Below, piece by piece: positions 14,674-25,029 of a DNA stretch of 32,583 nucleotides. The DNA is from Lachnospiraceae bacterium (GTDB taxonomy: Bacteria > Bacillota > Clostridia > Lachnospirales > Lachnospiraceae), in assembly GCA_017427775.1 (NCBI GenBank), contig JAFRSD010000033.1, forward strand, positions 1-32,583. The letters are read 5' to 3'. The position numbers were made by a program, and so were the translations under genes. Position 1 is the first letter of the stretch. Each line of letters starts with the position of its first letter. The notes beneath the pieces are model-generated. The model saw only the letters and a program-made list of their open reading frames with translations. It ran no database searches and had not been told where the DNA came from.

Positions 14674-15235
14674 AAGAGGTGACTCCTTTCTCCGCGAGAA
14701 TCGAGCGAAGCTTTGATTTGCCGCGGTGAAGTATATTTTCCACTTTCTTTTCGGGGAGATCCAGATGAGCCGCGATTTCCTTTACGGAGCGTTGTTCATA
14801 GAAGCGCTCCCGGAAAATGCTCCGCGCCGGTTCGTCGAGCTCCGAAACGGCAGACGTCACGGCTTCCTGAAGCCAGCGTTTTGCAGCGAGATCTTCGAGG
14901 CGGGCCGGAGATTCCGGTTCGATTCCGAGGTCCGTGACGGCGTCGAGGGAAAGCATTTCCGGCTTAAGGCTTCGGAGCCGGTCTTTGGAAGCGTTTCGTG
15001 CGATTGCGAAGAGATAGCTTTTTAACGAATACTTTTCACTCAGCCGGACTCTCTCCCGATTCTTCCATAACTTCACAAAAACGTCGGCCTCAGCCTCCTC
15101 CGTTTCCTCGCGAGGGCGCCCTGCGAGTAATACGGAGCAGATTTTGTGCACGGCAGGGCCGTAAACATGGATGATCTGCCGCATTCCCTGTTCCGGATCG
15201 GTTTGTAACAGGTCCAGTAACTGCTGTTCGTCCAT
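14660..15235 (-). CDS. ECF-type RNA polymerase sigma factor
   Basis: The protein has 191 residues. The region-2 part (about 20-85) contains AEADVFVKLWKNRE and the YLFAIARNASKDRLR segment, which fit the core-binding and -10-recognition helices. The region-4 part (about 130-180) contains the helix-turn-helix SVKEIAAHLDLPEKKVENIL. Region 3 is absent, as in ECF factors. GGGAGG lies upstream of the ATG. It heads a two-gene unit with the membrane anti-sigma protein and probably directs a small regulon on release. The upstream gap (15236-15395, shared with asnS) contains no promoter that can be assigned to the sigma gene with confidence, so autoregulation is not shown. Confidence 0.9.
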   Translation of the reverse strand: MDEQQLLDLLQTDPEQGMRQIIHVYGPAVHKICSVLLAGRPREETEEAEADVFVKLWKNRERVRLSEKYSLKSYLFAIARNASKDRLRSLKPEMLSLDAVTDLGIEPESPARLEDLAAKRWLQEAVTSAVSELDEPARSIFRERFYEQRSVKEIAAHLDLPEKKVENILHRGKSKLRSILAEKGVTSYEES

Positions 15236-21211: not shown

Positions 21212-21284
21212 ATGATAGATTACTGTCAGAAATCGCCGTTCTTTGCGCGTAAAGGCGGCGGAAAATGTGAGGGAGTATTCGTTC

Positions 21285-22958
21285 ATGCTGGGAATCAGAC
21301 GAAGAATTGCTGTTATATCCGTATGTCTGCTGGCGCTCTTTGCGGCCGCCTGCGGAACGCAGGATGAGATAAAATGTCCGGAGGCCAACCGGATGGCAGA
21401 GGCCAATGAAACAAACGGCGCAGACATCGAGCCGATCCGTGAGACGCCGATGCCGACACCGGTCCCGACGGAGGAGCCGTGGCAGGAGGAAGGCCGCGAG
21501 ATAAAGCTGCCGGAAGAGGAACGGTACCATTATGACATGGATATTGTCCTCGATATCACGGAGAAGAAGCTCCGGGGGCATGTCGTATTTGACTTCTATA
21601 ACGATACGGATAAGACATGGGACAAGCTCTGCATGAGAGATTATCCGAGCCTGCTCTCCGATCCGGAGGCAGCCGGCTATGGGGAAGGAAAGGATTTTCA
21701 CGGGGCTCTGACGGAGATTGACAGTCTGACGGACGGCAGGGACGGGTCCGGGATCTCTTTTGAAAGGGACGAAGACGTTTCCGTTCTGTGGCTTACTCTT
21801 GAGAAGCCGCTTGAACCCGGAGAGAAGATGACTTTGACCTATGATTATACGGCGACGGTTCCGAATATCGGCGACCGGTTTGGTTATCTGAACGGAATCT
21901 ACTGCATGGCGGATTTCTATCCGATCCTGGCGGAATATGACCGCGAGGGTTGGGAGCGCGAACCGTTCTGCAGTGCCGGAGAAGGCTGCTACTCGGAAGT
22001 CGCGGATTACGATGTGCGAATCACTTTGCCGAATGATTTTGATGTGGCTTCGACAGGCGTTACGACCGCGCGGCGCAATAACGGAGCCACGGCGACATTT
22101 GTATTCCATGCGGACTGTGTGAGAAACTTTATGTTTACGACATCCGATGCGTTTGTCCGTAAGGAGGAGACCTTCGATGACGTGAAGGTAAATCTGTTGT
22201 ATGTAAAGGAATACGACGAAATGAAGTACATGGCCGGTGCGGTCGAAGCGGCTATGAAAGCAGCGGAGGATTCGCTCGCGGCGTTCGGAAACGCGCTTGG
22301 GAGGTATCCGTACAGTGAACTGGATATCGTCATCACGCCGCTGCAGGCTGACGGAATCGGTTATCCGAACATTGTCGTTATCACGGATGAGGTCTTCCGT
22401 CCGTTTGCCCTACAGGAAACCGTAAAAACCGCGACAGAGGTCAGTTACGGAATGTTAGAGGAAAGCATCGCCCATGAGATCGGGCACCAGTGGCTGTTAG
22501 GGATCGTCGGAAGCAACTCCCGCCTGCAGCCTTGGCAGGAAGAATCACTCACATCCTATCTGGAACTGGTTTTCGCGGAGTACCGCGGAAAGACGGAGTG
22601 GGCGAGCGGAAGGTACGGAAACAGCCAGGCTGATCTTCGGGATCCGGAGGTGGTCTCCCTCTATGCGCAGAACGAATTTCTGCCGATCAACAAAGCACCC
22701 GCGGAATATTCGGATATCACCAAATGCAACATTTCGACTTCTAACATGGGGCGCATGGTGTTCATGCAGATGGAGGAGATACTCGGACAGAAGGAATTGT
22801 ACTCCGTACTGCGCGAATACGTGAGGAGAAACGCCTTTAAAAATGCCGAACCGGAAGATTTCTTTGCGGTGCTTTATGAGTTCGCCGGCACGGACAATGC
22901 CGAACTGAACGCTCTTCTTGAGAACTGTTTTGACCTCTCGCGTCTTCGTGAAAAATAA
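21285..22958 (+). CDS. M1-family metallopeptidase-like lipoprotein with altered active site
   Basis: The protein has 557 residues. A signal sequence ends in a lipobox-like FAAAC (C23), then a Pro/Thr/Glu spacer to about 70, an N-terminal beta-domain (about 80-290) and a catalytic domain. The zinc motif is intact: H397-E398-x2-H401, then E420 after 18 residues, the classic HEXXH-X18-E. The substrate-binding GxMEN-type motif reads GIGYPN (357-362), with Gly359 where Glu is expected. The position of the catalytic Tyr in the usual YxKG appears as SNMG (486-489). It therefore probably binds zinc, but may not be a normal aminopeptidase. The ATG at 21285 is chosen over an upstream TTG because GAGGGAG lies 9 nt before it. 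Confidence 0.85.
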   Translation: MLGIRRRIAVISVCLLALFAAACGTQDEIKCPEANRMAEANETNGADIEPIRETPMPTPVPTEEPWQEEGREIKLPEEERYHYDMDIVLDITEKKLRGHVVFDFYNDTDKTWDKLCMRDYPSLLSDPEAAGYGEGKDFHGALTEIDSLTDGRDGSGISFERDEDVSVLWLTLEKPLEPGEKMTLTYDYTATVPNIGDRFGYLNGIYCMADFYPILAEYDREGWEREPFCSAGEGCYSEVADYDVRITLPNDFDVASTGVTTARRNNGATATFVFHADCVRNFMFTTSDAFVRKEETFDDVKVNLLYVKEYDEMKYMAGAVEAAMKAAEDSLAAFGNALGRYPYSELDIVITPLQADGIGYPNIVVITDEVFRPFALQETVKTATEVSYGMLEESIAHEIGHQWLLGIVGSNSRLQPWQEESLTSYLELVFAEYRGKTEWASGRYGNSQADLRDPEVVSLYAQNEFLPINKAPAEYSDITKCNISTSNMGRMVFMQMEEILGQKELYSVLREYVRRNAFKNAEPEDFFAVLYEFAGTDNAELNALLENCFDLSRLREK

Positions 22959-22961
22959 GGG

Positions 22962-22990
22962 TTGACATCTTTGAAAAGCTGTAGTATAGT
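22962..22990 (+). promoter_or_regulatory. Strong promoter of the leader-peptide/GNAT unit
   Basis: A perfect TTGACA (22962-22967), a 17-bp spacer and TATAGT (22985-22990). It begins 4 nt after the stop codon of the preceding gene and drives the attenuator region. Confidence 0.85.
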
Positions 22991-23023
22991 TAGCGCAATA
23001 TTTTTCGAAAGGAGTTCTTCGTA

Positions 23024-23110
23024 ATGTTTGCAATGGTCTCCCGCAATACCGATATTATTACCAAGGCAGTGAATTCTTACGGTCACGGTCTTCTTTTGGT
23101 ATGCGGATGA
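23024..23110 (+). CDS. Short leader peptide (28 residues)
   Basis: The ORF runs ATG to TGA and encodes a peptide starting MFAMVSRNTD and ending GLLLVCG. AAAGGAG lies 9 nt before the ATG and a near-perfect promoter is just upstream. The stop codon is 2 nt before a strand that can pair with the terminator stem at 23148. This layout is typical of ribosome-controlled attenuation, where stalling or translation rate decides read-through. The peptide has no run of one amino acid, so it does not look like a classic amino-acid biosynthesis leader; antibiotic- or stress-induced stalling is possible. I do not recognise the peptide. Confidence 0.6.
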   Translation: MFAMVSRNTDIITKAVNSYGHGLLLVCG

Positions 23111-23112
23111 GA

Positions 23113-23180
23113 ATAAGCGAAGAACAGTTTCAAACAGCATTTTAAATGTCGCTTATCCGATTCGGGTAGGCGACTTTTTT
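23113..23180 (+). terminator. Attenuator: terminator with competing antiterminator strand
   Basis: The terminator stem is 12 bp with two G-U pairs (23148-23159 with 23163-23174), an ATT loop and six T (23175-23180). ATAAGCGA (23113-23120) is fully complementary to TCGCTTAT (23149-23156), the left arm of the terminator, so the two folds exclude each other. CGAAGAAC (23118-23125) also matches GTTCTTCG (23014-23021) next to the leader-peptide start. Confidence 0.7.
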
Positions 23181-23211
23181 ATTCGGAATGGTTAGCAGAA
23201 GGAGGCGGACG

Positions 23212-23328
23212 ATGAACGACGAGGCGTTTTCGGAATTCCTTCGATACCACCTGGCAACCTGCGAAAAGCGGGAATTGCTGGGGGCATCGAGCCATCTGCT
23301 GTACATTTGCCGTAAGGAAAGAGAATAA
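23212..23328 (+). CDS. Small protein of 38 residues, unknown
   Basis: The ORF starts at an ATG with AAGGAGG 7 nt upstream and encodes a 38-residue, mostly helical, charged peptide beginning MNDEAFSEFLRYHLATCEKR. It lies between the attenuator and the GNAT gene, 18 nt before the latter, so it is probably cotranscribed. No family is recognised. The strong ribosome binding site and tight spacing favour a real gene, but the length is too short to be sure. Confidence 0.5.
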   Translation: MNDEAFSEFLRYHLATCEKRELLGASSHLLYICRKERE

Positions 23329-23346: not shown

Positions 23347-23898
23347 ATGAAATTTGCGGAACGTGAAATCAAACTGAAAGACGGCAGGACCTGCGTCCTG
23401 AAGCCGAATTCCCCGGAGTACGCGGCGGAGATGATCGAATTTATGAAGAAGACGGCCGGAGAGACCGAATACCTGCTCCGTTACCCGGACGAAGTTAGTT
23501 TTACAGTCGAGAAAGAGAAGGAAATCCTCGGGAATATCCTCGAAGACCCTTACCATATCATGATGATCGCGGTTGTGGACGGAAAGCCTGCCGGAAACGG
23601 AAGCGTCAGCGGTATCGGGACGAAGCGGAAGATTCAGCACCGCTGCACCCTGGCGATCGCTCTTTATGAGGAATTCTGGGGGCTCGGAATCGGCAGCGCG
23701 ATGATCAATTATCTTTCGGAGCTTGCCGCCGGAATCGGCTGGAAGCAGCTTGATCTTGAGGTAGTCGCGGACAATGAGCGCGCGCAGGCGCTGTACCGCA
23801 AATGCGGATTTGTGGAGAGCGGACGCAGACATAACGCACTCCGGTTTGACGACGGGACATACCATGATGAGATTCTGATGTACAAGGACCTGACGTGA
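23347..23898 (+). CDS. GNAT-family N-acetyltransferase
   Basis: The protein has 183 residues. The acetyl-CoA-binding motif A appears as YEEFWGLGIGSAMINYL (about 107-123), with the Q/RxxGxG/A-like core GLGIGS. The C-terminal ADNERAQALYRKCGFVESG block is typical of ribosomal-protein- or small-molecule-type GNATs. Acetyl transfer to an amine is expected; the acceptor is unknown. GGGAGG lies upstream of the ATG. It sits behind the attenuator and the 38-residue ORF, so it may be the regulated gene, and a drug or toxin acceptor is possible. It is followed closely by a phosphodiesterase gene. Confidence 0.9.
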   Translation: MKFAEREIKLKDGRTCVLKPNSPEYAAEMIEFMKKTAGETEYLLRYPDEVSFTVEKEKEILGNILEDPYHIMMIAVVDGKPAGNGSVSGIGTKRKIQHRCTLAIALYEEFWGLGIGSAMINYLSELAAGIGWKQLDLEVVADNERAQALYRKCGFVESGRRHNALRFDDGTYHDEILMYKDLT

Positions 23899-23934: not shown

Positions 23935-25029
23935 ATGAGCAAACTGACTTTGCCGGATTACAAAAACTGCATCGCGAACCTGCCGAATTCGATTCTTAAG
24001 AAGTTTGATTCGGAACCTGTCGGCGACACGCTGCCGCTGATAGACCCGTATCTTGAAAAGGACTACGAGAATATCGTCGTAATCCTTCTTGACGGGATGG
24101 GGAAAGTGATCTTAGAGAGGCATCTCGCCGAGGACGGGCCGTTCCGTTCACATCTTGCCGGCATTTATAAATCCACATTTCTCTCGACTACGGTTGCTGC
24201 GACGACTTCGATGCTGTCGGGGCTTCAGCCGTGCGAACACGGCTGGCTCGGGTGGGACTGCTACTATCCGCAGATCGACAAGAACGTTACGGTATTTCTG
24301 AATGTGGAAATGGGAACGGATCAACCGGCGGCAGACTATAATCTGGCTTGGACCGTAACGCCGTACGAGGGCGTTGTGGAGCGGATTAAAAGGCACGGCG
24401 GACAGGCATACCTGGTCGCGCCTTTCGCCGATCCGGAGATAAACACGTTCGAAAAACTTTGCGACCGGGTGCGGCAGCACTGCGAAAAGCCCGGAAAGAA
24501 GTACGTATACGCTTACTGGAACCAGCCTGACGGTGTTTTGCACCGGAAAGGATGCGGTTCCGAAGAGACCGCGGACAATGTGAGAATGCTTGAGGCGGCG
24601 GTCAGTAAGCTGGCAGCAGATCTTACGGACACGCTGGTAATCGTAACCGCGGACCACGGTCATATCGACAGCGAGCAGGTCTGGATTCAGGACTATCCCA
24701 TCCTTATGGACTGTCTGGAGCGTCTGCCGTCCTTAGAGCCGAGGGCACTGAATCTCTTCGTAAAACAGGGAAAAGCAGCATGCTTTGTCGCAGAGTTCAG
24801 TCGACTCTTTGGGGACAAGTTCAAATTGATGCGGATGGATGATGCAATTCAGCAGAATCTGTTCGGAACGAAGACGCATCATCCGCAGTTCCGTTCCATG
24901 CTCGGAGATTATCTCGCAATCGCGACCGGTGACCTGTCGATCATGAGTGTCGATGAGAAGTTTGTTTCGATGCACGGAAGCCTCACGGAGGACGAGATGT
25001 TAATACCGCTGATCGTCTTTGAACCCTGA
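23935..25029 (+). CDS. Type I phosphodiesterase/nucleotide pyrophosphatase-like protein
   Basis: The protein has 364 residues and belongs to the alkaline phosphatase superfamily. Metal and active-site residues are visible: D53 in LLDGMG, the nucleophile Thr region FLSTTVAATTS (T85/T86), D199 and H203 in QPDGVLH, D240-H241 in ADHGH and H347 in MHGSL. It has no signal peptide, so it acts in the cytoplasm. It should hydrolyse a phosphodiester or pyrophosphate bond; the substrate is unknown. AAGGGGG precedes the ATG. It starts 36 nt after the GNAT gene and ends at a terminator, so it closes that operon. Confidence 0.88.
   Translation: MSKLTLPDYKNCIANLPNSILKKFDSEPVGDTLPLIDPYLEKDYENIVVILLDGMGKVILERHLAEDGPFRSHLAGIYKSTFLSTTVAATTSMLSGLQPCEHGWLGWDCYYPQIDKNVTVFLNVEMGTDQPAADYNLAWTVTPYEGVVERIKRHGGQAYLVAPFADPEINTFEKLCDRVRQHCEKPGKKYVYAYWNQPDGVLHRKGCGSEETADNVRMLEAAVSKLAADLTDTLVIVTADHGHIDSEQVWIQDYPILMDCLERLPSLEPRALNLFVKQGKAACFVAEFSRLFGDKFKLMRMDDAIQQNLFGTKTHHPQFRSMLGDYLAIATGDLSIMSVDEKFVSMHGSLTEDEMLIPLIVFEP

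Follow-up and report, generated by a model that had tools for sequence, protein, structure and literature searches.

A predicted ribosome-mediated transcription attenuator in a Lachnospiraceae genome, with relatives ahead of differing operons

The stretch of DNA analysed here (32,583 nucleotides from a Lachnospiraceae bacterium, called the window throughout) contains a short leader region between an M1-peptidase ORF (21243-22958) and two adjacent genes, one for a GNAT acetyltransferase and one for a phosphodiesterase-like protein (Table 1). The leader's promoter begins three bases past the end of the peptidase ORF and ranks first among 9 promoter-like sites detected between positions 15000 and 32583. 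Other leaders of the genus also have a like promoter on their 5' side, in a set gathered by a pattern that demanded one, and a Shine-Dalgarno-like site is present in 39 of 39 parsed leaders, part of which were selected by such a site. The predicted terminator is placed between the leader ORF and the first gene, beginning in the window 37 nt past the stop codon, and the terminator stems of other leaders are similar to it.

Table 1. Leader region and the genes behind it, in coordinates of the window
Feature	Position	Strand	Remarks
Sigma-70-type promoter, TTGACA-17-TATAGT	22962..22990	+	11/12 consensus bases
Shine-Dalgarno AGGAG of the leader ORF	23010..23014	+	
Base of the 5' arm	23014..23022	+	9-bp helix with 23117-23125 in the MFE fold
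Leader ORF, 28 codons, MFAMVSRNTDIITKAVNSYGHGLLLVCG	23024..23110	+	putatively translated; TGA stop 23108-23110
3' arm, candidate antiterminator strand CGGATGAGAATAAGCGAAGAAC	23104..23125	+	overlaps the stop codon; partner: 5' arm or terminator left arm
Predicted intrinsic terminator	23148..23180	+	12-bp stem 23148-23174, 3-nt loop, T6
In-frame remnant, 38 codons, of a class I SAM methyltransferase gene	23212..23328	+	
GNAT acetyltransferase, first intact gene past the attenuator	23347..23898	+	Pfam PF00583, 9.8e-14
Type I phosphodiesterase / nucleotide pyrophosphatase-like protein	23935..25029	+	Pfam PF01663, 6.1e-16

In its MFE fold the leader forms one long hairpin, with the first leader codons in the 5' arm and the end of the ORF in the 3' arm. 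An earlier note on this DNA had described a near-perfect promoter, a 28-codon ORF with a strong ribosome binding site, a strand after the stop codon complementary to the left arm of a 12-bp terminator, and a second strand complementary to the sequence next to the leader start. The promoter and the ORF with its binding site are as described (Table 1), and so are both pairings: ATAAGCGA (23113-23120) and TCGCTTAT (23149-23156) can form an 8-bp antiterminator helix, and CGAAGAAC (23118-23125) is complementary to GTTCTTCG (23014-23021), a pairing present in the MFE fold. The antiterminator strand placed right after the stop codon does exist, but the strand that recurs in the family takes in the stop codon itself. 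In the window this is CGGATGAG (23104-23111), which can form another 8-bp antiterminator, absent from the earlier note, with CTTATCCG (23152-23159), and which is invariant across the 9 leaders of alignment A1. Compared with dinucleotide shuffles, the 152 nt up to the terminator fold with a z-score of -2.3 (3 of 200 shuffles as good), and the leader including the terminator with one of -4.4 (0 of 200). These scores, together with recurrence in diverged homologues, confirm that the arrangement in the window is above chance.

The earlier note had listed the 38-codon ORF ahead of the GNAT gene as the first sequence reached by read-through; by its similarity it is the C-terminal rest of a methyltransferase gene that relatives retain. 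Positions 23203-23319 match residues 242-280 of the G018 methyltransferase with 82% identity, and in G016 the DNA of the remnant site lies inside an intact methyltransferase gene (98% identity over 41 bases). It is the sole methyltransferase match in the window's genome at E 0.001. Because its Shine-Dalgarno sequence, start codon and reading frame are retained, we read it as the product of an in-frame deletion. A class I SAM methyltransferase gene directly follows the leader in six genomes (G018, G016, G020, G005, G014 and G019), and in four others (G003, G009, G001 and G010) a protein of 135-136 aa (MKYYRVHT...) is encoded between the two. This protein is often the first gene product past the attenuator, and its 135-aa form (L136:2529-2933) and relatives have no match in Pfam, NCBIfam or PADLOC at E 0.01. 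Other leader copies, for example G005:C12 and G016:C31, lack an adjoining methyltransferase gene. The methyltransferase as a universal partner of the leader could be ruled out, as the leader model matches at 9 of 80 methyltransferase loci (E <=0.1), eight of these matches being strong and one (L159) weak and partial; a crude terminator search on the 5' side of the 80 genes gave mainly unrelated hairpins.

We consider it likely that the window element is a ribosome-mediated transcription attenuator ahead of the GNAT-phosphodiesterase operon. In the absence of leader translation, the 3' arm would be held by the 5' arm, so that the terminator would form and RNA polymerase would stop. Under translation at normal speed, a ribosome at the stop codon would cover the 3' arm, and the terminator would form again. 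A ribosome that is slow or held within about the first ten codons would block the 5' arm and leave the 3' arm free, and the free arm would pair with the left arm of the terminator during its transcription, giving read-through into the GNAT and phosphodiesterase genes. Such a leader would report slowed initiation or early elongation, as when a drug targets the ribosome or usable tRNA runs short, and not the supply of one amino acid. The methyltransferase gene, directly behind the leader in several relatives, has been lost in the window.

The leader is not confined to this genome. A blastn search with 351 bases as query hit 10 of 61 genomes, among them that of the window, and all ten belong to one genus. 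In counts to which the source genomes of the models contribute by construction, and in which many of the weak matches are partial, a sequence-only covariance model built from 14 leaders (R1) matched 17 of 22 genomes of the genus at E 0.01, with the best match in each at 1e-14 or better, and 16 of 150 genomes of the family, while a model built from 24 leaders without the RtcB-type leaders described below (R2) gave matches at E <=0.001 in 40 genomes of the family (397 searched) and in 36 of its 334 genera, 19 of the genomes reaching 1e-8 or better. A search of the order gave matches in 16 of 295 genomes, 12 of them outside the family; these were weak (best 2.1e-5) and are not counted as members. 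Apart from those before RtcB genes, R2 matches precede genes that, judged by eye, encode small Xre-like proteins, GNAT-like proteins, methyltransferases and an ABC transporter-like protein. These comparisons suggest repeated use of the same switch in different genera of a mostly uncultured family, where the enzymes behind it differ. We rejected the idea that the stem is a terminator in general use in these genomes: of the 11 places where a stem pattern matched in 203,740 bases, 10 are attenuators. This count is biased, since the stretches had been chosen for attenuators or the genes next to them, and 5 of 15 attenuators, the window's included, escaped the pattern. The window's own genome carries a second attenuator of the family (L083, G000:C1:65275-65468). 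It precedes the gene for an MRYFRVHT protein and also one for a protein that resembles another with a Pfam GNAT domain and that has, by eye, a P-loop-like start. At L245 (G682) a leader of this kind stands before a gene resembling that of an ABC transporter (by eye).

For the comparisons that follow, 28 leaders of the main type were parsed and 24 kept, the near-duplicates G018a, G007, G018b and G014 being dropped; G009 was excluded as nearly identical to G003. A further set came from 22 inspected loci, 16 of which had a leader ORF and terminator by pattern and 12 of which were used (L219 and L233 were near-duplicates, L236 was already included and L241 doubtful). The weak R1 matches L088, L093, L096 and L099-L104 were unparsed as leaders, and L087 stands outside the counts.

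RNAalifold on MAFFT alignments recovered the terminator and an inner stem, nothing else. Because it missed the arms, which we think is due to shifting alignment columns, we turned to partner-swap tests. Among the 24 leaders, 5' and 3' arms from the same leader pair at -32.4 kcal/mol compared with -21.8 kcal/mol for swapped partners, and 0 of 2000 swaps were as good. The 3' arm and the left arm of the terminator pair at -12.2 compared with -10.1 kcal/mol (0/2000), and the control pairing of 5' arm with terminator gives -7.0 compared with -7.4 kcal/mol (1717/2000). When swaps were restricted to subclasses, the first pairing kept its signal (0/5000) and the second did not (518/5000); terminator arms are nearly alike inside each subclass. 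Against shuffled 3' arms, the 3':terminator pairing has a mean z-score of -1.05, positive in 1 of 24 leaders. Examples can be picked out by eye: GTTCTTCG/CGAAGAAC in the window corresponds to GCACCT/AGGTGC in G010, and CGGATGAG/CTTATCCG to CGGATC/GATCCG in G025. By these tests the sequestering helix of 5' and 3' arms is maintained in homologues despite sequence change, whereas the antiterminator is the weaker half, its support coming from differences between subclasses. The proposal of a ribosome-controlled two-state attenuator, and with it the expectation that related loci would keep the peptide ORF and both pairings, is thus supported for the leader ORF and the 5':3' pairing throughout, and for the competing antiterminator between subclasses but not within them.

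In a folding model, the leader was folded up to the terminator loop with the footprint of a ribosome barred from pairing. For the window, the model predicts 2.6 expected antiterminator pairs without a ribosome and 1.5 with one at the stop codon, compared with 9.6, 11.8, 8.9, 11.9 and 4.9 pairs for a ribosome at codons 0, 3, 6, 9 and 12, and with 2.6, 2.6 and 2.9 pairs farther along (codons 15, 18 and 22). Averaged over the 24 leaders, the prediction is 6.5 pairs with no ribosome bound and 11.7 for one on the start codon; the later positions give 8.9 (codon 12), 6.6 (codon 18) and 2.4 (stop codon). In this model a ribosome at codon 3 gains more than 0.5 pair over the stop state in 24/24 leaders and over the ribosome-free state in 19/24; in the remaining five it gains less than 0.5 pair over the ribosome-free state, or loses. 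At codon 3, 23 of the 24 leaders have a modelled value above the average for shuffled terminator arms; when only the window is considered, 11 of 150 such shuffles do as well as the real arm. When the complete window leader is modelled at equilibrium the terminator always wins, with 0.0 antiterminator pairs in the ten states tried; antitermination must therefore be kinetic, acting during transcription, and on this modelling we regard that need as the main uncertainty in the mechanism.

A sister form of the leader accompanies RNA repair genes. Some R1 and R2 matches precede genes for the RNA ligase RtcB (assigned from sequence by inspection), and a search of 100 family genomes gave RtcB-like matches in 33. 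From these, 30 loci were taken and 22 inspected upstream; three were unparsed and 19 evaluated, of which 11 have a leader ORF and terminator (L106-L110, L112, L113, L115, L116, L117 and L119), while L111, also upstream of rtcB, has a like terminator only. In six loci (L087, L106, L107, L108, L113 and L116) the interval from attenuator to rtcB contains between one and four tRNA genes (Leu-TAG, Lys-TTT, Ser-TGA and Trp-CCA). Separately, tRNA genes for Glu, Tyr, Arg or Ser are found behind rtcB at L106, L110, L113 and L116. In the 11 RtcB-type leaders the swap test of start and stop arms shows co-variation (3/2000). The 3':terminator test is negative (837/2000) with the 3'-arm segment used for the main set, and positive (3/3000) with a segment from codon 26 to the terminator that was picked after the former result. 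The modelled mean of the 11 rises from 2.6 to 5.8 pairs in the ribosome model, and 5 of the 11 stay below 3.5 pairs at every position. R2 matches some RtcB-type leaders over most of their length (6.8e-9 in G185, 7.2e-7 in G089), and the main and RtcB-type peptide profiles give a weak hhalign match (probability 10%, P 0.003).

It is unlikely, in our view, that the window's leader is a relic that no longer regulates without its methyltransferase, the GNAT operon being read from elsewhere or constantly low. Such decay would agree with a methyltransferase cut down to 38 codons and with GNAT genes that stand elsewhere without a leader (a GNAT relative without any leader match in G004, and two GNAT relatives with a single leader match in G008), but promoter, ORF, both arms and terminator are all intact, and the plus strand of the interval from terminator to GNAT gene holds no other promoter-like site of at least 9/12. 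Since the first target gene is deleted in the window, this copy of the attenuator may nonetheless be on its way out.

If the element is a working attenuator, the drift of its peptide bears on what it senses. Six close leader pairs, which share members and are not independent, differ by 31 nonsynonymous codon changes (one a stop) compared with 11 synonymous ones, and in these pairs the peptide shows, from the codon counts, no sign of purifying selection. Because the peptide drifts, an arrest peptide is less likely than a device that senses slow translation early in the ORF. Our preferred reading, in line with proposals made for bmrB and toiL, is a sensor that responds generally when initiation or early elongation slows. 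None of the 32 leader peptides listed contains a run for one pathway amino acid. An amino-acid starvation leader of the trp or his type was rejected, there being no codon run and the genes inspected behind the leaders not being those of amino-acid biosynthesis. From the absence of a run the earlier note had concluded that the inducer would be unusual; the absence holds, but the conclusion need not follow, since in the model the operon is turned on by a ribosome held at any point within roughly the first ten codons.

A more specific sensor, in which cut, uncharged or undermodified tRNAs would stall the ribosome at Asn, His and Tyr codons within the leader's first third, seems to us quite unlikely, even though these residues are plentiful: at codons 4-16 they make up 20.8% of 312 codons in the 24 main leaders, 22.4% of 143 in the 11 RtcB-type leaders and 22.4% of 156 in the 12 further leaders, compared with 9.0% at the same codons of 137 mechanical ORFs of at least 250 aa, and the sister leaders have RtcB and tRNA genes behind them. 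But no enrichment is seen for Asp (0.71-fold across entire leaders), which completes the GUN-anticodon group as its fourth member, and the frame effect is weak, with NAY at 24.4%, 8.3% and 19.9% in frames 0, 1 and 2 of codons 2-16 in the main set, where ordinary ORFs have 16.1%, 5.3% and 13.4%. Pairing with a purine-rich 3' arm may also force a pyrimidine-rich 5' arm, and such pairing demands could be behind part of the enrichment. Sensing of the queuosine or colicin-E5 kind was set aside as the main reading, Asn, His and Tyr being enriched and Asp not, and enters only this rival and the bolder reading given below.

The nascent peptide itself might stop an antibiotic-bound ribosome, as in erm leaders, where the nascent peptide halts a ribosome with antibiotic bound. 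Recurring positions in alignment A3, chiefly H-G-[LF]-x-x-V near the peptide end, and the methyltransferase behind several leaders would suit a drug-specific arrest peptide of this kind, which we nevertheless hold to be improbable: the count of 31 to 11 given above runs against it, the H-G codons sit in an inner stem with compensatory changes, and in the folding model a ribosome halted at this late motif would cover the antiterminator strand, which is the OFF state. A metabolite riboswitch or protein-bound leader in which translation plays no part is highly improbable, for although riboswitches too use a two-helix switch with a terminator and the leader shares that layout, loop codons vary among close leaders, yet start, stop and frame are constant, and no Rfam family (T-box, riboswitches and others) reaches its gathering score in the leaders, which rules out a known riboswitch or T-box (of three chance-level matches the top one is trpB, at 21.1 bits against a gathering score of 59).

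To our knowledge, most leader-ORF attenuators described from Firmicutes are isolated examples from a small number of model species, and the natural inducers of bacterial RNA repair (RtcB) are poorly known. The bmrB leader of Bacillus subtilis bmrBCD has a predicted terminator, antiterminator and anti-antiterminator, lincomycin raises its read-through, and rare codons have no major role (PMC4191407). It resembles the window element in having a leader ORF with competing terminator and antiterminator folds, a likeness drawn from layout, but its terminator lies within the bmrB coding region, that of the window past the stop codon, and its operon is other than a GNAT-phosphodiesterase one (PMC4191407). 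In the toiL uORF of Escherichia coli a pairing spans the uORF, and halts at various codons caused by several drug classes derepress (PMC12121999). The window leader is alike in its pairing across the ORF, by which halts at different codons would act; unlike toiL, which acts on a ribosome-binding site and Rho termination, it would act on an intrinsic terminator. The same source names vmlR, cplR and vga(A) as leader-ORF attenuator cases (PMC12121999). The yxjB leader of B. subtilis is described as tylosin-induced, with antibiotic-dependent ribosome stalling tied to methyltransferase expression (PMC6851288); the yxjB enzyme methylates 23S rRNA, whereas the methyltransferase behind the family's leaders is a generic class I enzyme. 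Judging by titles and opening abstract lines, we found no description of the leader element in the literature searched, which covered few subscription papers and no preprints and included passages of an attenuator survey (PMC2965389).

By computation, then, the element is a real attenuator that would work like known ribosome-mediated attenuators and has an unusual spread over operons. If the proposed polarity is right, the leader marks which uncharacterised enzymes respond to translation stress, and RNA repair would be linked to ribosome stalling through the sister form that precedes RtcB and tRNA genes. A bolder reading is that one translation-sensing leader across many of the family's operons for enzymes that modify small molecules (methyltransferases, GNATs, a kinase-GNAT and a transporter), together with the sister form before RtcB and spare tRNA genes, constitutes a regulon for ribosome poisoning and tRNA damage, with Asn/His/Tyr codons tuning the leaders to anticodon-nuclease attack; we regard this as unlikely.

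Two minor observations concern the neighbourhoods of these leaders. A cobalamin riboswitch (L090:2506-2695) lies near the attenuator locus of G141. Similar leaders stand before a gene for an Xre-like HTH protein of 83-89 aa with a GFATPQAIYKWQ-like motif at L231, L233, L239, L240 and L242, and like-looking Xre-like proteins adjoin rtcB in L085, L097 and L111.
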